From Bacteroidetes bacterium OLB12 (GTDB lineage: Bacteria > Bacteroidota > Bacteroidia > Cytophagales > Cyclobacteriaceae): DNA of 64,000 nucleotides. This document shows positions 39,902-59,335 of this stretch, in pieces (the stretch's first letter is position 1; every line of letters starts with the position of its first letter). The DNA lies in the NCBI GenBank assembly GCA_001567185.1, contig LNFR01000083.1, forward strand, positions 18,014-82,013, in the 5' to 3' direction. The notes under the pieces were generated by a model. That model saw nothing but the letters and a program-made list of their open reading frames with translations. It was not told where the DNA came from and ran no database searches. Both the position numbers and the translations under genes were made by a program.

Positions 39902-42774
39902 TTAAAGTAGTTTCCCCTTCAAAAACTCAGCGGTATAACTGCTCTTCGCTTTCTTCGCCATCTCTTCGGGTGTGCCTTCAAATAATAGTTTGCCTCCGTG
40001 TTTTTCGCCACCTTCCGGGCCGAGGTCAATTATCCAATCGGCACACTTGATAATTTCAAGGTTGTGTTCAATAACCAAAACTGAATGCCCCTGATCCACC
40101 AGCGCATTGATGGCTTTCAACAATTTTGAAATGTCGTGAAAATGCAGACCGGTAGTGGGTTCATCAAAAATGAAAAGGATGTGGCCGGTGGTGTCGGAAT
40201 TATTCTTGCCTAAGAACGAAGCAAGTTTAACCCGTTGGGCTTCTCCGCCTGAAAGGGAATTGGAGGACTGACCCAGTTTCACATAACCCAACCCCACTTC
40301 GTACAAAGGAAGGATGCGTTCATACACTGCTTTCTTGTCTTTAAAAAATTCAAGCCCTTCTTCCACCGTCATGTCCAACACATCGGCAATGTTCTTACCC
40401 TGGTGTTGCACTTCCAGCACTTCCTGTTTAAAGCGTTTGCCGCCACAACTTTCGCACTTCAGAAAGATGTCGGCCATAAACTGCATTTCAATTTTTATTT
40501 CGCCTTCTCCTTCACAGGTTTCGCATCGGCCACCTTCCACATTAAACGAAAAGTGCGAAGGCTTATACCCACGTTGCTTACTCAAAGGCTGATCGGCATA
40601 TAAATTTCGAATGGCATCGTATGCTTTTACATAACTGATGGGATTGGAGCGCGAGGATTTCCCGATCGGGTTCTGATCTACAAACTCCACTTGCGTGATC
40701 TTGTTGATGTCGCCTTCCAGCCGATCGTACTTACCAGGCGTTTCGGCAACGGAACCACTTACACGACCCAATGCCGGATATAAAATCTTCTTTACTAAAG
40801 TTGATTTGCCCGAACCACTTACTCCCGTTACAACGGTTAACACGCCCAATGGAAATTTCACCGTCAGGTTTTTCAAATTGTTCTCACGTGCACCCGAAAC
40901 CGTAACAGCATCTTTCCACTTTCTGCGAACTTTTGGAACAGGAATTTTTTCAGTGCCATTCAGGTAATCAACCGTGTGCGACTTTATCTTTCCATTCAGT
41001 TCCTTTTGCAAGCCCTGAAAGATCAACTCGCCTCCGTGCGAACCGGCATCGGGGCCAATGTCGATGATCTGATCGGCCGCCCGCATGATCTCCTCCTCGT
41101 GTTCCACCACAATCACCGTGTTGCCCATATCGCGCAGCGACTTCAGTACCTCTACCATGCGCGCGGTATCGCGCGGGTGCAAGCCAATGCTCGGCTCGTC
41201 CATGATGTACATAGAACCCACCAACGCACTGCCCAACGAGGTGGCCAGTTTGATGCGCTGAAACTCTCCGCCCGATAAAGTGGATGTTACCCGATTAAGG
41301 GTCAGGTATCCAAGCCCCACTTTGTCCATGTACTCCAACCGCGATTTGATTTCCGTAAGAATGCGTTCGGAGACTTTTTGTTCATAGGCCGGTAACTTCA
41401 GGGAATTGAAGAACTGCAATGTTTCTTCAATGGGCATCAGCACCAGGTCGGTAATGGATGTGTCTGCAATCTTTACATAGGCTGCGTCTTTGCGCAGCTT
41501 CGTGCCGCGGCAATCCGGGCAGGTGGTTCTTCCGCGGTAACGCGAAAGCATAACGCGGTATTGAATCTTATGCGTTTTGGATTCGAGGTATTTGAAAAAA
41601 TCGTTGATGCCATCGAAGTGTTCGTTGCCATGCCACAACAACTCGCGTTGCTTCTGTGTAAGCTCGCTGTAGGGCCGGTGGATGGGAAAATCGAACTTGA
41701 TACCATTCTTAATTAATGGCTTTGCCCACTCGCTCATCACCTCGCCCCGCCAGGGCGCAATGGCACCTTCATACACAGAAAGACTTTTGTCCGGAATCAC
41801 CAGGTCTTCATCAATGCCCAGAATTTTTCCAAACCCTTCGCACGTAGTGCAAGCACCATAAGGATTGTTGAAGCTAAACAGGTTAACTGTAGGTTCGGTA
41901 AACGTAATGCCATCCAGTTCGAAGCGATCTGAAAAATTATATTTGCTTCCTTCCACATACAGCACACAATCGCCATGACCTTCGAAGAAGGCTGTTTGAA
42001 CAGAGTCGGACAGGCGGAAGGTCAGGTCTTCATCGGAAGCATTTACAGAGGCGCGGTCAATGAGGATTTCAACTGCATCGGATTGGATTGCAGGAGCAGG
42101 TTTCTTTTTGGTCTTTCCCTTTTCCCGGGGGAGAGCGGCATTAGCCGTGGCCTGACGGGACGAAGTCATCTCTTCAATAAACTTCATCTCGCCATTTACC
42201 AGTACCCGCGCAAAGCCTTTGCTCAAGAGCAGGTTCAATTCATCGGCCAGTTTGCGCCCTTTGGTAACCTTAAGCGGGCAAGCAATCATAATGCGGGTTC
42301 CGGCTGCTTGCTTGTTGATGAAATCAACCACCTCGGTAACGGTATCGCGTTTTACTTCCATACCACTAACCGGTGAATACGTTTTGCCCACCCGCGCAAA
42401 AAGCAATTTCAGGTAATCGTAAATCTCGGTGGTGGTGCCAACCGTTGAGCGCGGGTTTCGGGTGTTCACCTTTTGCTCGATGGCTATGGCAGGCGAAACT
42501 CCTTTGATGTAATCCACTTCCGGTTTTTCCATGCGCCCCAAAAACTGGCGCGCGTAGGAACTCAAACTCTCCACGTACATGCGCTGCCCTTCGGCAAACA
42601 ACGTATCGAACGCCAGCGATGATTTTCCCGAACCGGAAAGGCCGGTAATTACAACCAGTTTGTTGCGCGGAATGGCTACACTCAGGTTCTTGAGGTTGTT
42701 AACCCGTGCCCGTTTAATGATGATATACTCTTTGGGGTCGAGTTCGGCTAAGTGAGAATCGTTGGAGCCTGCAT
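39902..42774 (-). CDS. uvrA: Excinuclease ABC subunit A (probable one-base frameshift at the start)
   Basis: The damage-recognition ATPase of nucleotide excision repair, about 957 residues. Both ABC modules are present: Walker A motifs [13 protein letters not shown] and [13 protein letters not shown], signatures [13 protein letters not shown] and [13 protein letters not shown], and zinc-binding Cys pairs in [25 protein letters not shown] and CESCGGKR. The coding frame is open through [20 protein letters not shown] but has no ATG. One base added to the AA at 42750-42751 (plus-strand view) links it to the ATG at 42774 ([13 protein letters not shown]), giving a normal-length UvrA. Start therefore inferred. 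Confidence 0.85.
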
Positions 42775-42837
42775 GCGAAACGGCAAAATTAAAAAATCGT
42801 GAAGGCTTGTCCTACCCGCAGTGCAAAGCTGGACTAC

Positions 42838-42876
42838 CTAAAAACAAAAACACCACCCGTTTTGTGCAGGTGGTGC
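42838..42876 (-). terminator. Rho-independent terminator of the acidic-protein gene
   Basis: On the minus strand a GCACCACC stem pairs with GGTGGTG (42869-42875 with 42851-42857 in plus view) around an 11-base loop, directly followed by TTTTTGTTTTT. It lies 22 bases past the stop of the gene at 42898 and ahead of uvrA, so uvrA should have its own promoter. Confidence 0.8.
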
Positions 42877-42897
42877 TCACTAATTTCTTTACATCGA

Positions 42898-43275
42898 TCA
42901 ATTATCAAAATCCGGATCGTAGCTAGCTTCCTTACCGGAGCCACCTCCGTCTTCGTCATAGTCATTGCTGTTGTCAAATTCATCCTCATTATCCGAAGAG
43001 GATTTCAGATCATCATCGCTTTCTCCATCAAATTCCTGACGCTCACCCGACTCCACATCGTAGCCGCCATCGCTGTTTTTGGTGGCCGGTACTTTTACCA
43101 GGTACACCGAGTCGTCTGTTTCCAGCGGAAAAACAAAGATTGGTTCTTTCTTTGCGTTTGTAATGCGGGTTAAACTTCCTTCATATCCATTGGGATATTG
43201 TTCTTTCATTAAGTCCCGGAGTTCGTCATTCAGGTTCTCCAGACTTTTAATTACACGTTTCTTTGTTACGGCCAT
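42898..43275 (-). CDS. Conserved acidic protein of unknown function
   Basis: A 125-residue protein with two parts. Residues 1-65 are a conserved, ordered-looking region (VIKSLENLNDELRDLMKEQY, then GSLTRITNAKKEPIFVFPLE). Residues 70-125 are a disordered acidic tail, mostly Asp, Glu, Ser, Asn and Gly (GESDDDLKSSSDNEDEFDNS). Similar small proteins occur in Cytophagales genomes without known function. Its own terminator follows; the gene is divergent from the sigma factor. Confidence 0.65.
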   Translation of the reverse strand: MAVTKKRVIKSLENLNDELRDLMKEQYPNGYEGSLTRITNAKKEPIFVFPLETDDSVYLVKVPATKNSDGGYDVESGERQEFDGESDDDLKSSSDNEDEFDNSNDYDEDGGGSGKEASYDPDFDN

Positions 43276-43444
43276 TGTATTTAAAAATCGAGGCCAAATA
43301 GCATAAGAAACCCATATGAAGGCAAATTTTTTTTTAAATTTTTTTGTCTTTTTCCGGAATCTTTCTACTTTTCAATTCACAAACAATTCCATTTAACCCA
43401 CATACTATCGAGCGAGACATCTACGTTACCTAAACGCAAAGCAG

Positions 43445-44097
43445 ATGATTGACAGCAGATGCAGCGACAGCCAGTTGGTTTCGCTTTATCAAACCGGTAA
43501 CGAAGAGGCGTTCGAAATGCTACTTCACAGACACAAGTCCCGTATTTATACGGCCATTTACATGATCGTGAAAGACCGCTACGAAGCAGAAGATTTGCTT
43601 CAGGATACCTTTATAAAGGCGGTAAACACAATTAAGGGTGGCCGGTATAACGAAGAGGGTAAATTTTTACCCTGGATTAGTCGTATTGCTCATAACCTGG
43701 CCATCGACCGCTTCCGCAGAAACAAGCGCTACCCTGAAGTGGTGCTCGAAGACGGAAGCGGGTATTCGACTCCATGCAATTTTCGGAGGAGTCGTACGAG
43801 GCCAAGCAACTAATGCGCGATACCAAATCAAGGTTGCGGGACCTGGTTAAGGAACTACCTGAAGAACAAAAGCAGGTGCTGATAATGCGGCATTACTTAG
43901 AAATGAGTTTTCAGGAAATTGCCGACCGCACAGGGGTGAGCATTAACACGGCATTGGGGCGTATGCGGTATGCGTTAATCAACTTGAGAAAGAAAATGAT
44001 TAAAAACCATATTGCCTATGACAAAGACCTTTACCCAAAACGATCTGATCAGGTTTATATACCGCGAGACCTCGGAAGAGGAAACGAAGGAGATTAA
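43445..44097 (+). CDS. ECF-type RNA polymerase sigma factor (one frameshift)
   Basis: About 217 residues after correction. Region 2 is clear: LVSLYQTGNEEAFEMLLHRH, AIYMIVKDRYEAEDLLQDTF and FLPWISRIAHNLAIDRFRR. The frame breaks at the GGG 43760-43762, one G short; the repair gives EDGSGVFDSMQFSEESYEAK and continues into region 4 (ELPEEQKQVLIMRHYLEMSF, EIADRTGVSINTALGRMRYA). The product overlaps the next gene by 80 bases and its last 25 residues (after MIKNHIAYD) look unconserved, so the true end may be earlier or affected by another error. Confidence 0.8.
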
Positions 44098-44248
44098 CAA
44101 AGCCCTTCTTTGCGATAGTACCCTGCAAGCTCAGTACAACGAGTTGAATGCTGCCTACAAGCAATTGAACCAGGCAAAACTGGAACCTTCTGCCGCCAGC
44201 ATTCAAAACATCTTGAACTACGCCCACGGGCTGCAGGAACACACCTGA
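44018..44248 (+). CDS. Small protein paired with the ECF sigma factor
   Basis: A 76-residue soluble protein from the ATG at 44018 (MTKTFTQNDLIRFIYRETSE). It begins inside the sigma-factor gene in another frame and ends AASIQNILNYAHGLQEHT. Its helical, charged N-terminus (LIRFIYRETSEEETKEINKA) resembles the sigma-binding start of zinc-less anti-sigma factors, but there is no membrane helix. Small cytosolic partners at this position are common in Bacteroidota; an anti-sigma role is inferred from position only. Confidence 0.6.
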   Translation: MTKTFTQNDLIRFIYRETSEEETKEINKALLCDSTLQAQYNELNAAYKQLNQAKLEPSAASIQNILNYAHGLQEHT

Positions 44249-44260
44249 TTTAAAAATACA

Positions 44261-44388
44261 AGGGGTTATCTCAAGAATCGTTCTGTCATCGCGGATTTAT
44301 TCCGCGATCTCAATTTCGTAGTACTAAAAAGTTGATTCCGAAGGCCGGAATGACGTACGCTCTTATTTCGACTTTTAAGACAACCTCT
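44261..44388. repeat. Palindromic intergenic repeat, family 1, copy C
   Basis: The right end CTTTTAAGACAACCTCT (44372-44388) matches copy B's left end in reverse complement; the left end AGGGGTTATCTCAAG (44261-44275) is an imperfect partner. The core palindrome ATCGCGGATTTATTCCGCGAT is at 44288-44308 and is identical to copy B. It fills most of the gap between two convergent genes. Confidence 0.7.
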
Positions 44389-44431
44389 CTTATTTATTCC
44401 CTCGCTGCCTTCTAACAGCGCATCCGCTTTT

Positions 44432-45016
44432 CTACAACTCCTTAATGGAGATATTCCGCCACCGCACTTTCACTCCGCCCCCATCGTGTATCTGTAAAGC
44501 AATTTTACCGGTACGCGATCCAATCTTTTCATCCGTAAGGGTAATCATCTGCTCTCCGTTCAGCCAGGTGGTAACCACATTGCCCTGCACCAACACTTTC
44601 ATTTTGTTCCACTTGCCTTCTTTCAGGGCTTTCTCTTTTTCGGGCGCAGGCTTTATCAGCCAGCCCCTGCCATACGACTCATAAATACCTCCGCTATGAC
44701 TATTCAGGGGTGCCACTTCGGCCTGCCAGCCACTTACGGTGGTGCCTTCAATCTGGCTGTGGAAAAACACCCCGCTGTTTCCGTTCGATTCCTGTTTGAA
44801 TTCCAATGTCAGTTCAAAATCCTTGTACTCCTTTTCGGTGGCAAAGTAGCCATATTGCTTGTCGGGCCCGCTTTCGCAAACCAACTCGCCTTTATCTACA
44901 TACCACTTCTCCGTGCCATAAATTTTCCAACCGGTTAAATCTTTACCATTAAAAATTGATTGCTGGGCTGTAGCCGATGCCGCAACAAAAACAAGTACAA
45001 CAAGCAGGTTTTTCAT
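44432..45016 (-). CDS. DUF1080 (3-keto-disaccharide hydrolase-type) secreted protein
   Basis: A 194-residue exported protein: signal peptide MKNLLVVLVFVAASATAQQ, then a single DUF1080 lectin-like beta-sandwich. Landmarks are SIFNGKDLTGWKIYG at the start, FELTLEFKQESNGNSGVFFH in the middle, GWQAEVAPLNSHSGGIYES and the closing GGGVKVRWRNISIKEL. DUF1080 proteins hydrolyse 3-keto-glycosides or bind glycans. The gene stands alone between a convergent sigma-factor locus and a divergent lipoprotein. Confidence 0.8.
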   Translation of the reverse strand: MKNLLVVLVFVAASATAQQSIFNGKDLTGWKIYGTEKWYVDKGELVCESGPDKQYGYFATEKEYKDFELTLEFKQESNGNSGVFFHSQIEGTTVSGWQAEVAPLNSHSGGIYESYGRGWLIKPAPEKEKALKEGKWNKMKVLVQGNVVTTWLNGEQMITLTDEKIGSRTGKIALQIHDGGGVKVRWRNISIKEL

Positions 45017-45089
45017 CTTTGATTAACATTTAATAATCGAAAGTAGGGAAAATAAAAACAGATAAATTGCCGTCTGAAACAATTTCTAT

Positions 45090-45584
45090 ATGAAGCCTCT
45101 TGCCCTGTTGAATTCGCTTGTTTTCCTGGCGCTGGTATTTGCCTGCAACAAACCTGCAGAGAATACACAGGATACAATTACTGAAATACCGGAAGCGGAA
45201 GCCCCGCCCGCAGAAAGCCTGGAGGGCGAGTGGCACATGATTACGGAGGTGGATGGCGAATGGGTTTTGTTCTACCCGTGCGATGCCGACAATACCTTTA
45301 TCCAGATCCAGGCCGACTCGATTGTAATTGGCTGGGGCCAGGATGCAACGGCCGGTAAAATCGAAAGCTGGGCGAACGATGGAAACAAACTGACTCTTGC
45401 CGTAAACGATTCGTATGCCGTAAATACCTACCAGGTAAATACCGGCCTGAACGGATACACCGAATGGTGGCTGTGGGAAGATACAGAGAAACCCTCGCGG
45501 TTCATTCATGCCCGCAACAAGTCGCAATACAAAGAAGTGCGCCAACCCTGTAAAGAATGTTGGGAAGATTGTGAGGAAGAGTAG
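45090..45584 (+). CDS. Lipoprotein of unknown function
   Basis: A 164-residue protein with a lipobox (LVFLALVFAC, Cys near residue 19), an acidic linker rich in Glu, Ala and Pro, and a small lipocalin-like body (SLEGEWHMITEVDGEWVLFY and VVIGWGQDATAGKIESWAND-like strands). It ends CKECWEDCEEE with four cysteines counting the one just before. The beta-rich body suggests a small barrel, but I recognise no family. Confidence 0.6.
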   Translation: MKPLALLNSLVFLALVFACNKPAENTQDTITEIPEAEAPPAESLEGEWHMITEVDGEWVLFYPCDADNTFIQIQADSIVIGWGQDATAGKIESWANDGNKLTLAVNDSYAVNTYQVNTGLNGYTEWWLWEDTEKPSRFIHARNKSQYKEVRQPCKECWEDCEEE

Positions 45585-45635
45585 CCGATCGTTTTTTAAT
45601 TATCTCCCCGGCCCGCGATTTATATTTCTTTGCCC

Positions 45636-46811
45636 GTGAAAGTTTTGATCCTGCATCAGCATTATAAAACACCGGCTACCGGTGGGGCTATCCGTTCGTA
45701 TTACCTCGCAAAAGCTTTGGCCGACAAGGGCGTAACTACCGTGGTAATTACCGCCCACAACGAAAAATTTTACAAACAGGAAATAACAGATGGCATTGAA
45801 GTGCACTACTTGCCCATTGCCTACGACAACCGGTTTGGATTTTTTGCCCGCAGCTGGTCGTTCTTAAAATACGTGCGCGCCTCGGTAACCCTTGCACACC
45901 GCTTTCGCGATGCGGACTACTGCTATGCCATTTCCGTTCCGCTTACCGTTGGCCTTGCTGCCCTGTGGATAAAGATGCGGTATAAAATTCCATATATTTT
46001 TGAAGTGGGCGACTTGTGGCCCGAAGCTCCCGTTCAATTAGGCTTTATCAAAAACATTGTGTTTGCACAATCGCTTTATGCGTTGGAAAAAAGAATTTAT
46101 AAATCGGCTAAAAGCATCGTAGCCCTTTCGCCTTCCATCCAAACAGCCATCGAAAAAAAAAAAGTGCCGGGCAAAACTGTGCACCTGATTCCCAACATGG
46201 CCGACTGCGATTTTTATAAACCCGAAAAAAAAAGATGCGGTCCTGGAAGTTCAGTTTGCTGTGCAAAACAAATTGGTTGTATCGTACATCGGGGCGCTGG
46301 GTGTTGCCAACGGGTTGGATTATTTCCTGGAGTGTGTAAACGCTACACGCAAAGCACAACTGCCCGTTCATTTTTTATGTGTGGCGATGGGGCCGAGCTG
46401 GAGCGGCTGAAAGGGCACGCACAATCGCTGGGGCTAACCAACCTTACGTTTCTCGATTTCAGAAACCGCGATGGTGTAAAAGCGTTGCTCAACATTACCG
46501 ATGCGGTGTTTGTTTGTTACAAGCAGGTGCCCGTGCTGGAGACCGGCTCGCCCAATAAATTTTTTGATGGCCTGGCCGCGGGCAAACTTATCATTATCAA
46601 TTTTGGAGGGTGGATAAAAGCAGAAGTGGAAGCTGCGCGCTGTGGATTTTATTACAACCCCCAGCAACCAACAGAATTTGTAAAAAAACTTTCGGCTTAC
46701 CTGTATGAAGGCGGGTTACTGGAGCGCGCACAAGCTGCAGCCCGCAACCTGGCGGAAGAAAAGTATTCCAGAAAGAAGTTGAGTGAGGTGTTTGGGGGGG
46801 TGTTCCGTTGA
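45636..46811 (+). CDS. Glycosyltransferase family 4 protein (two compensating frameshifts)
   Basis: A GT-B glycosyltransferase of about 391 residues. The likely start is GTG at 45636 (MKVLILHQHYKTPATGGAIR). N-terminal GT4 features and IFEVGDLWPEAPVQLGFIKN are clear, and the C-terminal donor site shows VLETGSPNKFFDGLAAGKL. Between the A run 46225-46233 (one A too many) and the GG at 46383-46384 (one G short) the reading is shifted and gives nonsense. The other frame there reads LEVQFAVQNKLVVSYIGALG and LPVHFLCVGDGAE, the expected sequence. The long open frame thus hides about 50 wrong residues. Confidence 0.8.
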   Translation: MKVLILHQHYKTPATGGAIRSYYLAKALADKGVTTVVITAHNEKFYKQEITDGIEVHYLPIAYDNRFGFFARSWSFLKYVRASVTLAHRFRDADYCYAISVPLTVGLAALWIKMRYKIPYIFEVGDLWPEAPVQLGFIKNIVFAQSLYALEKRIYKSAKSIVALSPSIQTAIEKKKVPGKTVHLIPNMADCDFYKPEKKRCGPGSSVCCAKQIGCIVHRGAGCCQRVGLFPGVCKRYTQSTTARSFFMCGDGAELERLKGHAQSLGLTNLTFLDFRNRDGVKALLNITDAVFVCYKQVPVLETGSPNKFFDGLAAGKLIIINFGGWIKAEVEAARCGFYYNPQQPTEFVKKLSAYLYEGGLLERAQAAARNLAEEKYSRKKLSEVFGGVFR

Positions 46812-46972
46812 ACAATAAGATTAATAATTCAAAATTCAATATTATGTAAGAGACTCGCTCCGTGCATTTGACGCATGCCAGAGCCTCACAATCCCGCGAT
46901 ACTGAAACTATGGCCAGAGCCAAATTTCAGAAATAATAAACAAGTATGCTATTTATATTAATTTAGCTAACA

Positions 46973-49900
46973 ATGAAGTCAATTGCTTTCATAGATACCG
47001 AGATTGAACCTAAAAGTGGAAAGATTCTTGACATTGGAAGCGTCAAGGGTGATGGAAATTCTTTTCATAAAACTTCGCTAGCTGAGTTCATTAAATTTAT
47101 TAACGGAACACAATTCATTTGTGGACACAATATTTTCAATCACGACATAAAGTATATTGGGAAAGCCTTGAATGATGCAGGAGTAAACCCAGAAAACATC
47201 ATTGACACTTTGTTTCTCTCTCCGCTTTTGTTTCCAACAAGGCCTTATCATGCTTTGCTTAAAGACGACAAACTTCAATCGGACGACACAAATAATCCAC
47301 TTAATGACTCAATCAAGGCGAAAGATTTATTCTTTGATGAGATAGCGGCATTCCAGCAAAAAGACGAAACTTTAAAGCAAATTTTGTATTTGCTTTTGAA
47401 TGACAAAGGGGAGTTTCACTCCTTTTTCCATTTCATTGCATACACAAGCAGCGAAACCAATCTTGAAAAGCTAATCCGCTCAAAATTCCACTCTGAAATT
47501 TGTGAAAATGCGGGTCTTACAAGAATAATCTTAGAACATCCAATTGAATTAGCTTACTGCTTGGCATTAATAGATTGCCGAAACCGATATTCAATCACCC
47601 CACCTTGGGTACTGAAAACTTATAAAGAAGTAGAAAGGGTAATGATTGCCCTAAGAAACAAGCCATGTCTAACTGGTTGTGTGTACTGTAATCAGGCATT
47701 AGACATACACAAAGGGCTAAAAAGCTTTTTCGGTTTTGACTCCTTTCGAACTTATGCTGGTGAACCATTGCAAGAAAAAGCAGTAAAAGCAGCGATTGAC
47801 AACAAATCAATCCTAGCCGTTTTTCCAACTGGCGGTGGCAAGTCTATCACTTTTCAAGTCCCCGCATTAATGAGTGGGATTTCCACCAAGGGTCTAACTG
47901 TTGTGATTTCACCATTGCAATCACTAATGAAAGACCAAGTCGACAATCTTGAAAAAATTGGAATCACAGACGCAGTAACTATAAATGGTTTACTTGACCC
48001 AATTGAAAGAGGGAAATCTTTTGAAAGGGTTGAAGACGGCTCGGCATCTCTGCTTTACATTTCTCCCGAATCTTTGCGTTCAAAAACAATTGAACGGCTC
48101 TTACTAGGAAGAAAAATTGTTCGCTTTGTGATTGATGAGGCCCACTGCTTTTCATCTTGGGGGCAAGATTTCAGAGTTGACTATCTATACATTGGAGATT
48201 TCATCAAGCAAATTCATGAGAAGAAAAATCTAGAGGACACAATTCCAGTCTCGTGCTTTACGGCAACAGCAAAGAAAAAAGTTATAGAAGACATTTGTAC
48301 TTATTTTAAAGAAAAGCTTTCGCTCGATTTAGAAATATTTAGCTCTACCGCTACAAGAACAAACTTGCAATACAAAGTTTTTGAAAAAGGTGATGAAGAC
48401 GAGAAATATCAAGCGGTAAGAGACTTGGTTGAAGAAAAAAACTGCCCAACTATCATCTATGTTTCAAGGACCAAAAAGGCCTATTCGCTTGCAGAAAGAT
48501 TGACTGAGGATGGGTTCAGTGCGAAGCCTTATCATGGCAAAATGGACGTGAAAGAAAAGACCGCTAATCAAGATGCTTTCATAAAAGGTGAAGTCCCAAT
48601 AATGGTCGCAACTTCCGCTTTTGGAATGGGGGTAGACAAGAAAGATATTGGAATGGTAATTCACTATGAGATTTCAGATTCACTTGAGAACTATATTCAG
48701 GAAGCTGGGAGAGCAGGACGAGATGAAAAAATAACAGCTGATTGTTTTGTGTTATTCAATGAAGAAGACCTTGGCAAACATTTCATCTTGCTCAATCAAA
48801 CTAAACTTTCAATCAAAGAGATTCAACAGGTTTGGAAAGCGGTAAAAGACATCACAAAATTTCGTTCCTCAGTCTCAAACTCAGCCTTAGAAATTGCACG
48901 GAAAGCTGGATGGGATGATAATGTCGTTGAGATTGAAACAAGGGTAACAACTGCAATTGCAGCACTCGAAGATGCTGGGTACTTGAAACGAGGGCAGAAT
49001 ATGCCCAGAGTTTTTGCTAACAGTATCATTTCAAAAAATGTACAAGAAGCTATTGAAAAAATTAATGCCTCTCAACGATTTGAGGAAAAGCAAAAGGAAA
49101 AAGGAATCAGAATTATTAAGAAACTTTTTTCTAGCAAAAGTCGAAAACAATCAAATGATGAAGCAGCTGAATCAAGAGTGGATTACATCAGCGACCACCT
49201 AGGAATTGTAAAGGAAGAAGTAATTAATATTGTGAATCTACTTCGTGAAGAAAAGATTTTAGCCGATGCGAAAGATTTGACGGCATTCATAAAAAAAGGT
49301 GAAAGCACAAACCGTTCATTAAAGATTGTAGAAACCTTTAGTCAAATTGAGAATTTTCTTTTAGTAGTATTTGAGGAAAGGGAAAGTACATTTCATATCA
49401 AAGAATTGAATGAAGATGCAGAGGGGAAAGGCTGTAAAGATGTTACTCCAAATAAAATCAAAACTATTATCAATTTTTGGGCAATCAAAAACTGGATTAA
49501 GCGGCATAACGAAGAGTATTCAAAAAATCATGTTGTAATCATTTGCATTCAACCAAAAGAATCACTCAAGGAGAAGTTGGAGAAGCGCCACGAGTTAGCA
49601 AAGTTTTTGGTTGAATATCTATATGAGAAAAGTAATTTGAACATCCAAGATAATGAAAAGGAAAAAGAGGAAGTGTTAGTCGAATTTTCTGTCCATGAAC
49701 TAAAAGAGAAGTTTGAGCAAAAGCCGAAGCTATTTGACGTGAAAGTTTCCATTGAAGACATCGAGGACACGCTCTTTTATCTTTCAAGAATTGACGCAAT
49801 AAAAATTGAAGGAGGATTCTTGGTTGTTCATAATCGTTTAACCATTGACCGAGTCGAACAAGATAACAAGAGAAGATACAAGAATGAAGATTACCAGAAG

Positions 49901-51776
49901 TTAAATCAGTTTTACGAAAACAAGGTGCAACAAATTCATATTGTGGGCGAATACGCTAAGAAAATGATTAGCGACTACAAAGGAGCACTCCAGTTTGTTG
50001 ATGACTATTTTCAATTGAACTATGCTTCTTTTCTAAACAAGTATTTCAAGGGCAGCAGACAAAACGAAATTAAAAGGAATTTAACCCCTGCCAAGTTCCG
50101 GCAGTTATTTGGTTCATTATCTCCAACTCAATTAGAAATAATTAAGGACAATGAACCCAAACACATTGCAGTTGTAGCTGGTCCTGGGAGTGGTAAAACT
50201 AGAGTGCTAGTTCACAAATTGGCTTCACTGCTTTTGATGGAGGACGTAAAACATGAGCAGCTTTTGATGATTACATTTTCAAGAGCTGCAGCAACAGAGT
50301 TCAAGAAGCGCTTGCTTTCGCTTATTGGAAACGCAGCCCATTACATTGAAATAAAAAACGTTTCACTCATACTGCTTTGATTTGTTAGGAAAGGTTGGAA
50401 GTCTGGAAAAATCAGATGTCATTTTGAAAAGCACAATTGAGAAAATCAGAAGCGGAGAAGTTGAGGTCAATCGCATTACAAAAACTGTCTTAGTGATTGA
50501 TGAAGCACAGGACATGAATGCTGATGAGTTTGCATTGATAAGCACTTTGATGGAGCTTAATGAAGACATGAGAGTAATTGCAGTCGGAGACGATGACCAA
50601 AACATCTACGAATTCAGGGGAGCTAGTTCAAAATATCTAGAGCAATTCATAACGGAAAGGAAAGCTACCAAGCATGAGTTGATTGAAAATTATAGGAGCA
50701 AAAATAACTTAGTCGAATTCACAAACGGGTTTGCAAAAAAGATTGGCCACCGCTTAAAAGAAACAACAATTTCCGCAAAACAAACCGACAATGGAAATAT
50801 AAAATTAGTTTGTTACCAAAATGGGAATCTCATTTCACCACTGGTACACGACATACTTACAACAGACCTTTCAGGAACTACTTGTGTACTGACTAAAACA
50901 AATGATGAGGCATTGCAAATTACTGGGTTACTCCTAAAGAATGGGATGCAAGCAAAGTTGATTCAAAGCAATGACGGGTTCGGTTTGCAAAACCTTCTAG
51001 AGATTAGATCCCTCCTCAATGCGATAAACTTAGAAGATGAAATGAAGGTTATCAGCGATGAGATTTGGGCAAACGCTAAGAGAGAATTGAAAACTCAATT
51101 CCGGCTGAGCTCAAAGTTGGAATTGTGTGAAAATCTTATCAAACAGTTTGAAGAAAGTAACTCAAAAAAGAAATACAAATCCGATTTAGAAGTTTTCATC
51201 AGAGAATCAAAACTTGAAGATTTTTACAATGAAAACGGAGAGACCATTTTTGTTTCTACTATTCACAAGTCAAAAGGAAAAGAGTTTGATAATGTTTTCC
51301 TGATGCTTGAAAACTTCAACGCATCGACCGATGAAAGTAAACGCCAACTTTACGTTGGAATGACGCGAGCAAAACGCAATTTGACAATTCATTCAAACGG
51401 AAACTACCTTGACAACATCACAGCGGAAAATTTGGAGCGAATGGAAGACAGAGGAACACATCTGCCTCCAAATGAGTTAGCAATGCACTTGTCACTAAAA
51501 GATGTTTGGTTGGACTATTTTACAACAAGGCAACATCTAGTCTCAGGACTTACAAGTGGTGAAAATCTATTAATAAACGGTGACGAATGTACGACCTCTA
51601 AAGGACAATCAGTCCTGAGGTTTTCAAGACAAGCTCTCAATACAATTGAAGCACAAAGGCAAAGGGGTTATCACTTGAAGCAAGCTAAAGTGAATTTTAT
51701 TGTTTACTGGTTGAAAGAAGGTGCAGATCAAGAAATAAAGATTGTTTTGCCTGAACTATACTTTGAAAAAAGGTAG
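46973..51776 (+). CDS. Exonuclease-RecQ-UvrD fusion helicase (one frameshift)
   Basis: A 1600-residue protein after dropping one A at 50353-50358, which joins YIEIKTFHSYCFDLLGKVGS. Domains in order: a DEDD-type 3'-5' exonuclease-like part (FIDTEIEP with D8 and E10; GHNIFNHD with D58; H93 and D112); a CxxC segment near 233; a complete RecQ SF2 helicase (PTGGGKSITFQ near 285, DEAHCFSSWGQDFR near 388, YIQEAGRAGRD); a helical linker of about 450 residues; and a UvrD-type SF1 helicase (GPGSGKTRVL near 1068, DEAQDMNADE near 1173, TIHKSKGKEFDNVF, LYVGMTRAKRNL). It is A/T-richer than the flanks and is followed by two nuclease-like genes. Confidence 0.85.
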
Positions 51777-51921
51777 TAAACAATGGAAAGCATAGAAATT
51801 GCGACTTTTGCGCAAGCTGCACTTATTTCATAACAAATGCCGGTTCTATCTTTACTCCATTGAGCCAGATATGATTTTTTGAAAATGTTTTTCTCTAAAT
51901 TTCGAATAAAGCTATAAATCA

Positions 51922-52776
51922 ATGGCAAGCAAACTGTGGTCAAGGGAAGAACTTATACTTGCATTCAATCTCTATTTAAAGTTGCCGTTTGGTAAAATGC
52001 ACAGTAGAACACATGAAATAGTTCAGTTATCCAAAATAATAAACAGAACACCCGCCTCTGTAGCAATCCGTCTTACAAATTTTGCGCATTTAGATCCATT
52101 TCATAAAAATCGAGGTGTTAGCGGAATGTCTGGAGGGAAGAAGCAATGTGAGCCAATTTGGAATGAATTTATTCATAATAGAGAAAGATTGCTCTTCGAA
52201 AGTGAAAGAATCCTGGCAGAAGCCGAAAAGCAAACCATAGAGACAAAGTTTTCGGAAATTCTCAAAGGAACAGAGAATCTTAAAGGGGATGTAAAATTGA
52301 GAGAAGTTAAAACCAGAGTAAATCAAAATATCTTCCGCCAAATTGTAATTGCCAATTATTCCGTCAAATGTGCGATCTCCGGAATAGATATCCCTGATCT
52401 TTTGGTTGCAAGCCACATCATTCCATGGGCAGAAAATGAAGAACACCGACTGAATCCAGAAAATGGCCTTTGTTTATCATCACTCTACGATAAAGCATTC
52501 GATAAAGGTTACATTGGAATAAATCACAATTTTGAAATTATACTTTCAACCTTTCTAAAAAAGAAAAATAAGGAGGAATACTTCGCCAAATTCTTTTCTC
52601 CTTTTGATGGCAAAAAAATCATCCTACCAAGAAAGTATCACCCCAACAAAATTTTTTACAATATCACCTTGACACAATCTTTGAGGGGTGACATTCCTTC
52701 AATCCTATATACTAATGTAGTTAAGCAACATTCAGAGGCACTTCAATCCGAGGTGCTGAAAGATTCCCACATTTAG
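51922..52776 (+). CDS. HNH endonuclease
   Basis: A 284-residue nuclease-like protein. The N-terminal 70 residues are a Myb/SANT-like helical module (LWSREELILAFNLYLKLPFG, INRTPASVAIRLTNFAHLDP) found on this type of restriction-like HNH protein. The HNH_2-type catalytic part reads CAISGIDIPDLLVASHIIPW, then NPENGLCLSSLYDKAFDKGY, with the general-base His in ASHIIPW and the Asn in NPENG. It lies 145 bases after the helicase on the same strand. It could cut foreign DNA alone, or DNA opened by the helicase; that is inference. Confidence 0.85.
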   Translation: MASKLWSREELILAFNLYLKLPFGKMHSRTHEIVQLSKIINRTPASVAIRLTNFAHLDPFHKNRGVSGMSGGKKQCEPIWNEFIHNRERLLFESERILAEAEKQTIETKFSEILKGTENLKGDVKLREVKTRVNQNIFRQIVIANYSVKCAISGIDIPDLLVASHIIPWAENEEHRLNPENGLCLSSLYDKAFDKGYIGINHNFEIILSTFLKKKNKEEYFAKFFSPFDGKKIILPRKYHPNKIFYNITLTQSLRGDIPSILYTNVVKQHSEALQSEVLKDSHI

Positions 52777-52859
52777 ATAAATCTCAAAAACATCCAGACC
52801 GAAACATTTGACCACAAACAGAAAACAATATCTTTGTCTAGTTAAGTTGTATCAATTCT

Positions 52860-53366
52860 ATGCTACAATATCAACTGTTCCCCCGTTCATTTGGCATTAC
52901 CTCTGAAGTTGAAGCCGTCATTAAATGTTTTGATAAGAATTACAACAAAATAAAATCACCCGAAAATAATCTGAACAGTGATGGGGTACTGAAAGTTATT
53001 TCTAACGAATTGAAGAATCTCAATTTTAAAGTTGAGCAGAGCAAAGCGAAAGAGGATAAAATCAAAATTCCGGTTCTCTTTAGCTTGAATAATAAAATAG
53101 ATAAATTTTTTGACGCGGATGCCGTAAGTGCCGATGGGAAAATTGTTTTGGAGGTTGAGGCAGGAAGAGCGTATGTAAATAATCAATTTTTGAAAGATGT
53201 CTTTCAAGCTTGTATGATGCCCAGTGTTGACTATTTGATTTTAGCTGTTAGGAATGACTATAGGGGGAGCGATGATTTTTCAAGGATTTTTCAATTCTTT
53301 GAAACACTTTACATTAATGGAAGATTGCAACTTCCACTTAAAGGAATTGTCTTGATTGGGTATTGA
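52860..53366 (+). CDS. Putative PD-(D/E)XK-like nuclease, third gene of the helicase island
   Basis: A 168-residue soluble protein. The centre reads FFDADAVSADGKIVLEVEAG: an Asp, a beta hairpin, then Glu-x-Glu, which resembles the acidic core of PD-(D/E)XK nucleases of the BglII-like kind, with a helix (NNQFLKDVFQACMM) and a buried strand (VDYLILAVRNDYRG) after it. The C-terminus RLQLPLKGIVLIGY is well formed. The family has no name I can recall, so the nuclease role is inference. It shares strand and composition with the HNH and helicase genes, 83 bases downstream. Confidence 0.55.
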   Translation: MLQYQLFPRSFGITSEVEAVIKCFDKNYNKIKSPENNLNSDGVLKVISNELKNLNFKVEQSKAKEDKIKIPVLFSLNNKIDKFFDADAVSADGKIVLEVEAGRAYVNNQFLKDVFQACMMPSVDYLILAVRNDYRGSDDFSRIFQFFETLYINGRLQLPLKGIVLIGY

Positions 53367-53399
53367 CCTTAGGACACATCCCCTAAAGCCCCTCCGCAA

Positions 53400-53523
53400 T
53401 TATAAAATCAGTTTAACTACCACCATCACCCCCACAAGCAATAACCGGTAACCACGGGTTGCATCCTTAGCCCGCGATGTACTACCTTGTAGATCGTGTA
53501 TGGCTAACCTCTTTAACCCGATT
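53400..53523 (-). other. Possible membrane-helix tail fragment in the gap before the CE15 gene
   Basis: A minus-strand open stretch ends at 53400-53402 with a basic segment followed by one hydrophobic helix (TRGYRLLLVGVMVVVKLIL). It looks like the last helix of a membrane protein, but it has no start codon and no family match. It may be a decayed gene end or chance. Confidence 0.25.
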
Positions 53524-53576
53524 TTATGTTTTTACAATACCTTCTGCCCGCGCAATCCGGTTTGCATTCTTTCCTG

Positions 53577-54851
53577 ATGCACAACGCCACCCCAATACTT
53601 TTACCCGTTGCCCTTGTGCTGTGCCTGGCGCTGCAGGCCGCGGCCCAGGGTTTTGTTCCCAACTATGACGAATCAAAAGTGCCCCCCTACACACTGCCCG
53701 ATCCGCTGATAACCCGTGCGGGAGAACCGGTGCGGTCGGTTGCTGCGTGGAAGAATAAACGTGTCCCGGAAATTGCAGCGTTGTTCAGCGAGCATGTGTA
53801 TGGTTCCTTTCCGGCCGGCCCGCGCTCAACCCGCTTTGAAGTGTTGCGCGAAAGCAACCAGCTGCTGGGGGGCAAAGCCCTGGCCCGGCAGGTGCGGGTT
53901 TATTTCGGCACTACGGCCGGGTACATGGATGTGCTGCTCTTTCTTCCTGCTAAAGCAAAAAAACCCGTTCCTGTTTTTGTGGGGCTCAACTTTATGGGCA
54001 ACCATACCGTGTTGAACGATCCGTGGATTCCCCTCACCACGCGCTGGGTAAGCAACAACACCACCTACCACATTACCGACAACCGCACCAATGAAGGCAC
54101 CCGCGGTGTGCAGGCCGACCGTTGGTGTGTAGAAATGATATTGGATGCCGGCTATGGTGTAGCCACTGCCTACTACGGTGATCTGGAACCCGATCATGCA
54201 GAAGGATGGAAAACCGGCATACGCACTACGATGCAACCCTACACGGCACTAAAGCCGGAACAATGGGGCGCACTGGGTGCCTGGGGCTGGGGCTTATCGC
54301 GCATGATGGATTACCTGGAGACCGACAAAAACGTAGATGCCAGAAAGGTGATGGTTATGGGCCACTCGCGGTTGGGCAAAGCAGCTTTGTGGGCGGCTGC
54401 CAACGATGCGCGTTTTGCGATGGTTATCTCCAACAACTCCGGAGAAGGAGGCGCAGCACTTACGCATCGCAACTTTGGCGAAACGGTAGGCTTTATTACT
54501 TCCACTTTTCCGCATTGGTTTGTAAAAAAATTCAGCACGTATGCCGATGATCTTTCAGCCCTTCCGGTGGATCAGCACATGCTGATGGCACTGATGGCAC
54601 CGAGGCCGTTGTATGTGGCCAGTGCCCAGGAAGATCAGTGGGCCGATCCGCATGGCGAATTTCTGAGTGCATACCATGCGGGGCCTGTTTATGCGTTATT
54701 CGGAAAGACCGGACTGGGTACCGATAAGATGCCGGCAACTGAACAACCCGTTGGTGATTTTGTGCGGTATCACATTCGCCAGGGCGAGCATGATGTAAAG
54801 CCGTACGACTGGCAACAGTATATTTCCTTTGCCAACAAACATTTTCGGTAA
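53577..54851 (+). CDS. CE15-type carbohydrate esterase (glucuronoyl methylesterase-like)
   Basis: An exported esterase of about 424 residues. The ATG at 53577 gives a good signal peptide (PILLPVALVLCLALQAAAQG); an upstream ATG at 53526 is in frame but spoils it. The catalytic Ser is in VMVMGHSRLGKAALW near residue 262, matching the G-x-S-R-x-G-K motif of CE15, with an oxyanion Arg after it. A Glu in NNSGEGGAALTHRN and the His in IRQGEHDVKPYDW complete the site. CE15 enzymes cut ester links between lignin and glucuronoxylan. G+C rises again here compared with the helicase island. Confidence 0.8.
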   Translation: MHNATPILLPVALVLCLALQAAAQGFVPNYDESKVPPYTLPDPLITRAGEPVRSVAAWKNKRVPEIAALFSEHVYGSFPAGPRSTRFEVLRESNQLLGGKALARQVRVYFGTTAGYMDVLLFLPAKAKKPVPVFVGLNFMGNHTVLNDPWIPLTTRWVSNNTTYHITDNRTNEGTRGVQADRWCVEMILDAGYGVATAYYGDLEPDHAEGWKTGIRTTMQPYTALKPEQWGALGAWGWGLSRMMDYLETDKNVDARKVMVMGHSRLGKAALWAAANDARFAMVISNNSGEGGAALTHRNFGETVGFITSTFPHWFVKKFSTYADDLSALPVDQHMLMALMAPRPLYVASAQEDQWADPHGEFLSAYHAGPVYALFGKTGLGTDKMPATEQPVGDFVRYHIRQGEHDVKPYDWQQYISFANKHFR

Positions 54852-54877
54852 GCGAAATTTTCTTTCTGTTTTCCTGT

Positions 54878-54908
54878 TGTCAGGTGTTACCACGAAAGAC
54901 CTGACAGC
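54878..54908. repeat. Palindromic repeat, family 2 (TCAGGT/ACCTGA), single copy
   Basis: A short inverted repeat, TGTCAGGT and ACCTGACA arms around about 12 bases, placed 27 bases after the CE15 gene. The same arms recur at 57511-57667 and in part at 63975-63990. It could serve as a transcription end, but no T run follows. Confidence 0.5.
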
Positions 54909-55010
54909 AAATAAAATAGCGGACTCAAAAAGAACGGATTCAAAAATGTTCTAACAACGGAGAGAGAGCAAATGAAAAAAATGACGTCTAAAAATTAAGT
55001 ATATTTGTAA

Positions 55011-55346
55011 ATGGACTTAATGGCTATCCTAAAGGAGAGGTATTCCGATTTTGTTGAGCTCTGCCGTACACACAAGGTGGACAAAATCTATGCCTTTGGG
55101 TCATCGGTTACCAACCATTTTAATCCCCAAAAAAGTGATATTGATCTTGTGGTTAAGGTTGATATTGACGACCCTGTTGACCGCGGAGAAGCGCTTCTTT
55201 CACTATGGGACAACCTGGAGGAGCTTTTTAAAAGGAAAGTTGACTTACTAACGGAGGACTCTATTCGAAATCCTTATCTGAAGGCTAACATTAATCGGAC
55301 AAAAAAATTGATCTATGACGGAGAAGGAGAAAAAGTTTTTGTCTGA
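55011..55346 (+). CDS. MNT-type nucleotidyltransferase antitoxin
   Basis: A 111-residue minimal nucleotidyltransferase (MntA type). The GSxxT/S...DxD motif is plain: YAFGSSVTNHFNPQKSDIDL with the Asp pair in SDIDLVVKV and a third Asp in KVDLLTEDSI. In known MNT/HEPN modules the MNT protein adds AMP to the HEPN toxin and blocks it. It overlaps the HEPN gene downstream by 32 bases. A/T-rich, with a likely start at the ATG at 55011. Confidence 0.8.
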   Translation: MDLMAILKERYSDFVELCRTHKVDKIYAFGSSVTNHFNPQKSDIDLVVKVDIDDPVDRGEALLSLWDNLEELFKRKVDLLTEDSIRNPYLKANINRTKKLIYDGEGEKVFV

Positions 55347-55648
55347 CATATTAACTTCGATTGAACTAATTGAAAATTTTACCAAAGATTTAGCATCCTT
55401 TACCGATTACCAAAAGCGACCTCAAGACCAAAGGGGCTGTTGAAAGACATTTAGGAATTATTGGGGAAGCAGTAAATAAATTTCTGAAAGAATCCGAAGC
55501 GAACCACTTAAAGAGTGCTTCTAAAATAATTAGCCTGAGAAATAGGTTGATTCATTCATACGACAATATTGACGACTCTATTATTTGGTCAATTCTTACC
55601 CGGTATTTGCGCCCTCTTAAAGTGGAGGTGAAGAAGAAAATGGAATGA
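55315..55648 (+). CDS. HEPN-domain toxin, HepT-like (one frameshift)
   Basis: About 110 residues once one extra base near 55416-55418 is removed. The start MTEKEKKFLSDILTSIELIE leads to FTDYQKDLKTKGAVERHLGI after the join, and then to the HEPN catalytic motif SLRNRLIHSYDNID (R-x4-H-x-Y). HepT toxins are ribonucleases that cut mRNA or tRNA and are kept off by their MNT partner, encoded just upstream in overlapping fashion. The corrected length is that of intact HepT proteins. Confidence 0.75.
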
Positions 55649-55821
55649 AGGATCTCTGCCTTGCACAAGCAAACAAGCCTCTCTGCCTTCACCAATAGCA
55701 ACGCGAAAATATCTTTTTTACTCATTTTCGTCCGGGCGTAAAAGTATCATTCAAAGGCTCTTTCCTACCTTTTACAGTTTTAAGGCTTAATGCAATTTTG
55801 AATCGTAAAACACAAAGAAAA

Positions 55822-56469
55822 ATGAAAATTGCAGTAATTGGCACAACCGGTTTTGTGGGCTCAAGCATCACAACCGAATTAACAAACCGTAACCACCGTG
55901 TTACCGGAATTTCACGAAGCAACAAAACGTCTGACAAACAAAATCTGACTCACGTAAACGTTGACATTCTCAATGTAAATGAGCTTTCCAATGCTTTAAA
56001 AGGAAACGATGTGGTTGTAAGCGCCTTTAATGCCGGCTGGACAAATCCGAATCTCTACAACGAGTTTATAGCAGGATCAAAAGCTATTCAGGAAGCGGTA
56101 AAACTTGCAGGCGTTAAACGTTACCTTGTGATTGGCGGTGCCGGAAGCTTGTACGTAGCTGAGGGAATTCAGGCGGTAGATACTCCTTCTTTTCCCAAAG
56201 AGTTTTATGCCGGGGCAAGTGCTGCCCGCGATTACCTTAAGCTGCTCAGGAATGAACAGGATCTGGACTGGGTGTTTTTCAGTCCGGCACTCGAAATGCA
56301 CCAGGGCATTACAACGGGCCGCACCGGCAACTATCGATTAGGAAAGGATGTGCCGGTATTTGATGAAAACAAAAGAAGTGTTTTGTCGGTGGAAGACTTA
56401 GCCGTTGTTATTGCTGACGAGGTGGAAAACCCAAAACATCACAAAGAAAGATTTACAGCAGCGTATTAA
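55822..56469 (+). CDS. NAD(P)-dependent oxidoreductase, NmrA-like
   Basis: A 215-residue atypical short-chain reductase or NAD(P)H-binding protein. The start MKIAVIGTTGFVGSSITTEL holds the Rossmann motif GTTGFVGSS. RYLVIGGAGSLYV and VFFSPALEMHQGI fit NmrA-like/SDR family members (compare YwnB-type proteins). An earlier TTG at 55798 is in frame but adds only a charged stub. It is probably a cytosolic reductase with unknown substrate. The esterase at 56535 is on the same strand 65 bases on. Confidence 0.8.
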   Translation: MKIAVIGTTGFVGSSITTELTNRNHRVTGISRSNKTSDKQNLTHVNVDILNVNELSNALKGNDVVVSAFNAGWTNPNLYNEFIAGSKAIQEAVKLAGVKRYLVIGGAGSLYVAEGIQAVDTPSFPKEFYAGASAARDYLKLLRNEQDLDWVFFSPALEMHQGITTGRTGNYRLGKDVPVFDENKRSVLSVEDLAVVIADEVENPKHHKERFTAAY

Positions 56470-56534
56470 GAAAGTTATTGCGCTCCTGCAAAATCCTTGG
56501 TTGCTAAATCATACAACTAAAACAAACATATCAT

Positions 56535-57470
56535 ATGAAGAAGTTTATCTTTCTATTTCTTCTGAGCACACAATTAGTTGCTCAGCCAGGGCCTCCGGAT
56601 TATTCAAAGTTTTTTATTGAGGCTTCCAAATCCTGGGTGGACGTAGATTATGTTGGCGATGGCATTATCGGCCATAAGTTGGATGTGTTCCTGCCCAAAA
56701 CAGGTAACGGTCCGTTTCCTGTGGTAATTGTTATTTACGGAAGTGCGTGGTTTTCTAATTCCTCTAAATCTGCAAATTATCATGTGGGTTTAGATCAGGC
56801 TCTTTTAGGTGCAGGCTTTGCCGTAGTAAATATCAATCACCGTTCGAGCATGGATGCAAAATGGCCCGCACAGATACACGATGTGAAAGCAGCTATTCGT
56901 TTTATCCGGGCCAATGCCGCAACCTTTTCGCTGGATAATTCATTCATTGGTGTTACCGGATTTTCGTCCGGAGGGCACTTGTCTGCAATGGCGGGCGCAA
57001 CGAGCAATACAAAAACCGATAAGATAAATGGTTTAGATATTGATTTGGAAGGCAACCTCGGCAAATTTCTGGAAACAAGCAGCCATGTAGATGCCGTGGT
57101 GGACTGGTTTGGCCCCACCAATTTTTTGACGATGGACGAATGTGATAAGAATATGAATCACAACGATGCAAAATCACCTGAGTCCACCTTAATTGGTGGC
57201 GCGATCCAGGAAAATAAAGAGAAGGTAGCCTTAGCCAACCCGTTATCATACGTAAACAAGAATGACCCGCCCTTCTTGATTTTCCATGGTAATAAAGACC
57301 CTTTGGTGCCTCATTGCCAGAGTGAACAATTGTTTGAAAAATTACAAAAAGAAGGACCCCGCAGTGAACTGGTAATTGTAGAGGGTGGCGGCCACGGGCC
57401 TTTGGTTTTTGTGGAGAATAATTTTCAAAAAATGAATGCCTTTTTCAAAGCACAAGCTAAACGCAAATAA
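56535..57470 (+). CDS. Secreted alpha/beta-hydrolase esterase
   Basis: A 311-residue exported esterase of the alpha/beta hydrolase fold (BD-FAE/esterase-like). The signal peptide is MKKFIFLFLLSTQLVAQ. The nucleophile is in VTGFSSGGHLSAMAG near residue 142, the Asp in FHGNKDPLVPHCQ near 254 and the His in EGGGHGPLVF near 286. The oxyanion region VIYGSAWF departs from the usual HGG. Small carboxyl esters are likely substrates. Confidence 0.8.
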   Translation: MKKFIFLFLLSTQLVAQPGPPDYSKFFIEASKSWVDVDYVGDGIIGHKLDVFLPKTGNGPFPVVIVIYGSAWFSNSSKSANYHVGLDQALLGAGFAVVNINHRSSMDAKWPAQIHDVKAAIRFIRANAATFSLDNSFIGVTGFSSGGHLSAMAGATSNTKTDKINGLDIDLEGNLGKFLETSSHVDAVVDWFGPTNFLTMDECDKNMNHNDAKSPESTLIGGAIQENKEKVALANPLSYVNKNDPPFLIFHGNKDPLVPHCQSEQLFEKLQKEGPRSELVIVEGGGHGPLVFVENNFQKMNAFFKAQAKRK

Positions 57471-57510
57471 AAAGTATTACCAACTAATTAACTCAGGTTG
57501 TGATTAACTG

Positions 57511-57667
57511 GCCGTCAGGTTTCTCCGCTGACAGTACCGCCTGACAGCCTTTACCACGATGATTACAGTTATCTCTGCCGTCAGGTGCTACCACCTGACG
57601 GCCTTTACCCGGATGATTACAGTAAAAAAGTTCTTATGCTATCAGGTCGAAAAGACCTGACAGCAAA
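57511..57667. repeat. Cluster of family 2 palindromes and a tandem 23-base unit
   Basis: Three palindromes lie in one gap: GCCGTCAGGT with CCTGACAGC (57511-57549, imperfect), GCCGTCAGGTGCTACCACCTGACGGC (57578-57603), and ATCAGGTCGAAAAGACCTGACAG (57640-57663). Between them a 23-base unit GCCTTTACC(A/C)(C/G)GATGATTACAGT occurs at 57547-57569 and again at 57601-57623. The cluster lies between the esterase and the AraC regulator genes, ending 65 bases before the latter's start. Confidence 0.65.
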
Positions 57668-57732
57668 TGGGCTCATAAGAAATTTCACCGATCGGAGATT
57701 TCGTCTATTTTAGTGGACGACTTCCCCGGCAA

Positions 57733-58599: not shown

Positions 58600-58686
58600 A
58601 CAGTCATCAGAAAAACCATTGACAGATTGTTTCCCTTTTGGAATCGGGCAGCGTTTTAATTTAGCTTTGACTAAAATTCAAAATAT

Positions 58687-59103: not shown

Positions 59104-59154
59104 CACCACATAGTCGCACACCCATTGCCTGCCACCCTTCCCGCCACTGTTTAT

Positions 59155-59175
59155 GCACCGCAACGTTGTGCGGTC
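59155..59175. repeat. Imperfect inverted repeat GCACCGCAAC/GTTGTGCGGT
   Basis: At 59155-59175 the bases GCACCGCAACGTTGTGCGGTC can pair ACCGCAAC with GTTGTGCGGT, leaving one bulged T. It lies 52 bases after the EamA gene, before the DUF4386 remnant. Its form recalls integron-type recombination sites, but the box sequences do not match the consensus, so I call it only an inverted repeat. Confidence 0.35.
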
Positions 59176-59236
59176 ATTGTATATCAACACCTGTAACAAA
59201 AAGCTACATTATTCGTCTTTCAATACAAATTCATTT

Positions 59237-59326: not shown

Positions 59327-59335
59327 AGAAATAGA

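Follow-up and report, generated by a model that had tools for sequence, protein, structure and literature searches.

A single-chain protein with exonuclease-like, RecQ and UvrD helicase modules and its possible role against foreign DNA

Locus and reading frames

We analysed a 64,000-nucleotide stretch of the genome of Bacteroidetes bacterium OLB12 (contig LNFR01000083.1, positions 18,014 to 82,013; hereafter the window), in which two open reading frames (ORFs), arranged head to tail on the + strand, encode the parts of a fused helicase-nuclease. ORF1 (46973..50380, 1135 residues) comprises an exonuclease domain, a RecQ core, a winged-helix linker and the start of a UvrD domain, followed by ORF2 (50382..51776, 464 residues), which holds the remainder of the UvrD domain and a C-terminal tail. 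Pfam assigned DEAD (residues 265-440), Helicase_C (residues 477-583) and UvrD-helicase (residues 1050-1124) to ORF1, and UvrD-helicase together with UvrD_C to ORF2.

Comparison with the best 80 related loci of a species-genome scan (at least 80 exist; best-segment identity 56 to 87%) revealed that 68 of these relatives cover both window ORFs by one ORF of 1580-1677 residues. Alignment of the relatives with ORF1 reaches approximately residue 1128; from there they continue in a single frame, the end residues of ORF1 being out of frame. The copy of a same-genus genome (G008) is a single frame of 1600 residues, with a linker 93% identical over 404 residues. Twelve relatives lack a single long ORF: six are ended by contig ends (L042, L043, L050, L057, L067 and L084), and the other six (L015, L022, L039, L074, L082 and perhaps L059) appear broken, at scattered places unlike the window break. 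In addition, the copy of G062 has its frame shortened to 1292.

The frame-break region (50350..50381, + strand) is private to the window contig. The ratio of nonsynonymous to synonymous substitutions (dN/dS) was calculated against G008 part by part: the ORF1 parts gave 0.074, 0.028, 0.028 and 0.014, and behind the break the UvrD part gave 0.056 and the short tail 0.27. Most of the dS values exceed 1 and are near saturation. Because dN/dS is low and the relatives are in one frame, the break is, on sequence grounds, either recent or an assembly error. Programmed frameshifting was rejected as an explanation, since the relatives keep one frame and the few broken copies break elsewhere. Altogether, the anatomy of the protein, with its modules on one chain, is near certain. 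An earlier note on this DNA had proposed that exonuclease, RecQ and UvrD share one chain, which is borne out by the single ORF in the 68 relatives and in G008; its assignment of both ORFs to one protein likewise stands, the one-frame relatives contradicting a two-protein reading, and its 1600-residue product has the length of the G008 copy.

Exonuclease, RecQ, linker and UvrD modules

The N-terminal DEDD (DnaQ-fold) exonuclease-like domain (46973..47359, + strand, residues 1-129) carries the residues D8, E10, D58, H93 and D112. Their conservation was counted in an alignment of 92 protein rows, gaps being rows without a letter; L083 stands outside the alignments A1-A3, and L053 outside A3. The four acidic residues D8, E10, D58 and D112 are identical wherever a letter is present (88, 87, 89 and 88 of the 92 rows, the others being gaps), and H93 is kept in 87 of 89 rows with a letter. 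The catalytic residues are nearly invariant even in plasmid copies of about 30-37% identity. No Pfam model matched this domain of the window, and sequence searches with it gave weak matches only.

The AlphaFold model of residues 1-260 has a mean predicted local distance difference test score (pLDDT) of 90.8, and its fold belongs to the DnaQ/RNase-H-like class. Structural similarity search using Foldseek gave a sole match at E <0.001, the DinG of Staphylococcus aureus (PDB 9ii8), with an E-value of 9.7e-5 and a TM-score of 0.41 over the query length. Weaker matches include DNA polymerases, RNase AS, EXD2, Cas2-DEDDh and retroviral integrases, the integrases belonging to the wider RNase-H-like fold. 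A DEDD exonuclease is defined by four acidic residues and an RNase-H-like/DnaQ fold that carries them, and both are found here in sequence and model. The DEDDh subgroup has a histidine five residues before the last aspartate; this histidine is absent at its usual place, which is taken by N107 (Asn in 67 and Ser in 6 of the 73 rows with a letter). H93 precedes D112 by 19 residues and adjoins a loop (residues 94-105) with pLDDT <50. As judged from the model, we are sure of the fold class and not sure of the subfamily. In the Deinococcus copy, a glutamine replaces H93.

The exonuclease-like domain is followed by a helical segment (47360..47707, + strand, residues 130-245) with four near-invariant cysteines: among the rows with a letter, C177 and C232 are each kept in 87 of 89, C236 in all 87 and C239 in 88 of 89. 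In the Nostoc and Deinococcus copies (L161 and L162) these cysteines are absent or replaced, and Aliarcobacter mostly lacks them. The four cysteines perhaps form a metal site.

The RecQ superfamily 2 (SF2) helicase core (47717..48868, + strand, residues 249-632) scored 279.4 bits against the NCBIfam RecQ family model TIGR00614 (cut-off 219.8) and 317 bits, far under the cut-off of 640.2, against the recQ equivalog TIGR01389. This SF2 core possesses the Walker A, DEAH and arginine-finger residues of the RecQ family, with K290 present in 91 of 91 rows with a letter, H391 in 91 of 92, and R580 and R583 in all 92 rows. Its best matches in PADLOC are PsyrT (PsyrTA) and DpdF (Dpd). After the core, no Pfam match to the RecQ zinc-binding, RQC or HRDC domains was found at E 0.01, the linker being predicted to form other winged helices.

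The linker (48890..50107, + strand, residues 640-1045) was modelled within residues 600-1045, with a pLDDT of 72.2 and a predicted template modelling score (pTM) of 0.48. From the order of strands and helices in the predicted structure, we read roughly four winged helices followed by a helical bundle. Foldseek search with the linker returned mostly winged-helix proteins, none at E 0.001, and the linker of 30 of 68 members matched HTH_Crp_2 with E-values of 1 or below, the lowest being 2.8e-5. A sequence search of solved structures with the linker, and likewise with the C-terminal tail, returned nothing useful.

The UvrD superfamily 1 (SF1) helicase is divided by the frame break into a first part with Walker A and motif Ia (50108..50353, + strand, residues 1046-1127) and a second part in ORF2 (50382..51401, + strand). 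The Pfam UvrD-helicase and UvrD_C matches together with the conserved motif residues place it in the UvrD/Rep group SF1A: K1075 is kept in 91 of 92 rows, and T1076 as well as E41 and R329 of ORF2 in all 92. The UvrD core is compact, and the best PADLOC match of ORF2 is GajB (2.5e-35). The C-terminal tail (51402..51773, + strand, about 125 residues) gave no convincing match in sequence searches. The full SF2 RecQ and SF1 UvrD motif sets read earlier from the window alone agree with these family matches (TIGR00614 above its cut-off; Pfam in both ORFs) and with the near invariance of the checked residues, and the five exonuclease residues named at that time proved invariant or nearly so across the 92 rows.

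Genomic setting and distribution

The helicase gene lies in a variable cassette (46844..53439), which is replaced by unrelated DNA of 1.7 kb in another genome of the same genus (G023). The cassette spans 6.6 kb and has a GC content of 36.8%, vs 44.8% for the whole window, and the lowest-GC stretch of cassette size in the window starts at 46801 (in steps of 200 bases). The flanks in G023 are 92.4% (left, window 39909-46843) and 98.6% (right, 53440-59732) identical to the window. The replacement DNA of G023 encodes a PDC-S13 candidate defence protein (L163 9395-10543, PADLOC 1.7e-133). Downstream of the helicase gene, the window cassette also encodes an HNH endonuclease (51922..52776, + strand; PADLOC PDLC04132, 8.7e-84; Pfam HNH_2) and a protein of 168 residues (52860..53366, + strand) with no family match and no relative among the fetched loci.

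Several side observations concern this site. The sharp change of flank identity across the cassette hints at recombination there. The PDC-S13 gene of G023 is preceded by an ORF of 99 residues without PADLOC match. A palindromic repeat at window 57578-57670 is paired by blastn (80-86% identity) with G023 DNA at two places, the right edge of the cassette and 1.5 kb further on. Moreover, window 55011-55650 holds a nucleotidyltransferase gene that matches PDC-S09, and the MntA antitoxin family under its cut-off, followed by a partner that looks HEPN-like by eye and whose frame is apparently broken.

Counting the own genome, the gene occurs in 8 of 146 relatives; for the genus the count is 2 of 62 genomes, and for the phylum 15 of 395. 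Besides this gene, the own genome carries two other RecQ-like frames (662 and 638 residues) and a UvrD-like frame of 788 residues. Of the 430 matching plasmid records, 26 span 80% or more of ORF1, each at <60% identity. The record names span Bacteroidota, Bacillota, Thermodesulfobacteriota, Lentisphaerota, Campylobacterota, Pseudomonadota, Cyanobacteriota and Deinococcota, some of the phylum-labelled records being metagenome bins in which the contig may be misplaced. Contigs >100 kb carry 32 of the 80 relatives' loci, five of them on contigs >1 Mb. In a tree of 68 rows the phylum labels need 6 changes (minimum 3; shuffled mean 10.6) and are thus clustered, which fits with some transfer without proving it. 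That the gene is accessory and transferred is well supported. A phage-borne gene was rejected: the linker had no match in 50,697 phage records and matched 8 viral contigs. A set of 65 other proteins on these contigs includes matches to integrase, DNA invertase and methyltransferase and one major head protein.

The neighbours of the relatives were compared using PADLOC at E 1e-25, with results counted as families rather than proteins, so that several names could be one protein. For the 264 neighbour ORFs (36 loci), the numbers of families matched were 41 and 70; for 249 ORFs from 31 control regions they were 0 and 3 (31 of 39 regions were scanned; L147-L154 lay outside). Among the matches listed, the neighbour families comprise restriction enzymes, methyltransferases, AbiE, SoFic and candidate PDC genes, and the rows for DpdF and PsyrT probably reflect a single RecQ-like protein. 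With this RecQ-like match excluded, we estimate, counting from the names among the families listed, that about 17 of 264 neighbour ORFs vs at most 4 of 249 control ORFs are of such types (Fisher p 0.007). The hand-picked neighbours include type I restriction genes by L025, a type IV enzyme by L072, Upx by L078, a type IIG enzyme by L106 and HNH by L126. In the ten annotated plasmid regions, a type I restriction system lies just downstream in L091 and a Cas6 gene in L092, and toxin-antitoxin type genes lie near L089, L090, L158 and L160. The earlier note had taken surroundings of housekeeping repair genes only as evidence against a defence role; what is found looks accessory and defence-like instead.

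A same-strand ORF ends near the helicase start in 9 of 63 loci. Three of these ORFs are HNH genes directly before the helicase (L008 9194-9967, L012 2183-2944 and L032 9009-10001), which run into the helicase gene as if sometimes forming one operon. Three others we take by eye to be AbiEii-like (L021), McrC-like (L048) and RloC-type ATPase-like (L087), and those of L037, L038 and L046 resemble, by eye, no such defence type. An L030 protein also read by eye as McrC had no PADLOC match. A fixed two-gene system with HNH was rejected, since HNH relatives occur in only 6 of the 108 loci that hold the helicase linker; these 108 include L093-L100, short pieces repeating other loci.

Comparison with known systems and possible function

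The RecQ core with a DEDD exonuclease ahead of it resembles the arrangement of WRN, an exonuclease-fused RecQ. However, the window protein lacks matches to the zinc-binding, RQC and HRDC domains and possesses a winged-helix linker and a UvrD helicase instead. It also resembles the DinG of Firmicutes (S. aureus 9ii8 and Bacillus subtilis), in which an N-terminal DEDD exonuclease is fused to an SF2 helicase. B. subtilis DinG is reported to be a DEDD exonuclease-helicase that degrades single-stranded DNA 3'-5' and has an XPD-like motor (PMC12525004). DinG differs in having this motor rather than RecQ and no UvrD.

Among defence systems, the UvrD part is most similar to Gabija GajB, likewise a compact UvrD-type helicase. 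GajB is a separate subunit working with the nuclease GajA, whereas the helicase here lies within a larger chain; a PADLOC scan of three window neighbours revealed no GajA partner, and the relatives show no recurrent partner. PsyrT and DpdF are RecQ-type helicases of defence systems, but their matches are confined to the RecQ core, and their models also catch a probable plain RecQ in L064. Hachiman HamAB is a defence helicase-nuclease reported to sense DNA damage (PMC12278908); compared to the single chain described here, HamAB is composed of two subunits. RecBCD and AddAB share the concept of two motor domains and a nuclease acting on DNA ends. The motor pair of RecBCD is not of the same polarity, and we know of no Chi-type regulation for this fusion, which differs from RecBCD/AddAB in nuclease type and in its presumed same-polarity motors; no RecB-type PD-(D/E)XK nuclease was found by Pfam at E 0.01 in ORF1 or ORF2. 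The comparison is a functional analogy only.

Judging from the setting and the nature of the parts, destruction of foreign DNA is the most likely function. Conserved active sites, a patchy family and neighbourhoods enriched in defence-type genes lead us to favour an accessory helicase-nuclease that would attack ends or forks of foreign DNA, with a probability of about 0.5, and we infer an anti-phage role. As an autonomous, horizontally moving enzyme, it would act on the DNA of invading phages or plasmids, loading at ends, at single-strand gaps, or where that DNA is forked or recombining. Both motors are presumed to run 3'-5', as members of the RecQ and UvrD families do. The RecQ motor may open the duplex, the winged helices may hold the junction, the UvrD motor may work on the other strand or push through bound proteins, and the DEDD domain could trim the 3' ends of the unwound strand, whereby foreign replication or recombination intermediates would be destroyed. 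The host might be spared simply because ends and gaps may be commoner on replicating foreign DNA. More tentatively, and with somewhat greater doubt than belief, we propose a stand-alone one-gene anti-invader machine, found across eight phyla, in which same-polarity motors of two superfamilies would drive a 3'-5' exonuclease through foreign DNA. The DNA-degrading defence machine of the earlier note thus gains from the accessory, defence-like distribution and surroundings, its likeness to RecBCD and AddAB holding by analogy alone.

Several observations weigh against a role in defence. There is no obligate operon partner, the commonest neighbour cluster occurring in 7 of 81 loci and resembling, by eye, an ABC transporter ATPase. 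The control regions come from nine Chitinophagales-side genomes and are not taxon-matched; 4 of 10 and 7 of 10 hand-picked neighbours in two sets have no PADLOC match; and around the plasmid copies L088, L089, L159 and L162 one finds chiefly genes for replication or partition, insertion sequences or ordinary genes. In the tree, phyla stay partly together; among the matches listed, none of the PADLOC and NCBIfam models fits the whole architecture; and repair genes of the accessory kind, too, can be mobile and have a patchy distribution.

The last point touches on the strongest competing explanation, an accessory repair or fork-restart enzyme, analogous to WRN with an added UvrD motor, which is transferred but serves the host genome. 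Its domain logic is like that of WRN and DinG, the records bear an automatic DNA recombination label, and the single-strand-degrading B. subtilis DinG is implicated in overcoming replication stress (PMC12525004). However, the very patchy presence even within the genus (2 of 62), the other RecQ- and UvrD-like genes of the host, the defence-type neighbours and the exchange of the site for a candidate defence gene in G023 make this explanation rather unlikely. The gene might instead help mobile elements, with plasmids or prophages carrying it for replication or recombination or to keep out rival elements: on plasmids of Aliarcobacter the gene stands next to ParA/ParB genes and on one of Deinococcus next to a replication initiator, and the viral contigs encode the integrases, invertases, methyltransferases and head protein described above. 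Yet the linker is unmatched among the phage records and chromosomal copies are common, given the many loci on long contigs, so that we regard such a role as improbable. Least plausible is that the window genome encodes two separate proteins or a decayed pseudogene; the contig as given does have two frames and about 6 of 80 relatives also appear broken, but the relatives are in one frame and dN/dS against G008 is low on both sides of the break.

As far as our searches show, no described protein joins RecQ (SF2) and UvrD (SF1) motors and an exonuclease on one chain. In the open-access library searched, no title or abstract start describes a RecQ-UvrD fusion, most subscription papers lying outside this search and absence being no proof. 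The family records mostly carry the plain name RecQ, and a sizeable family is thus hidden under generic annotation. It raises the question why motors of presumably equal polarity should be joined, and whether a single gene can suffice to destroy invading DNA. If the more tentative reading of a stand-alone machine is true, a single chain would do what RecBCD or Gabija do with several.

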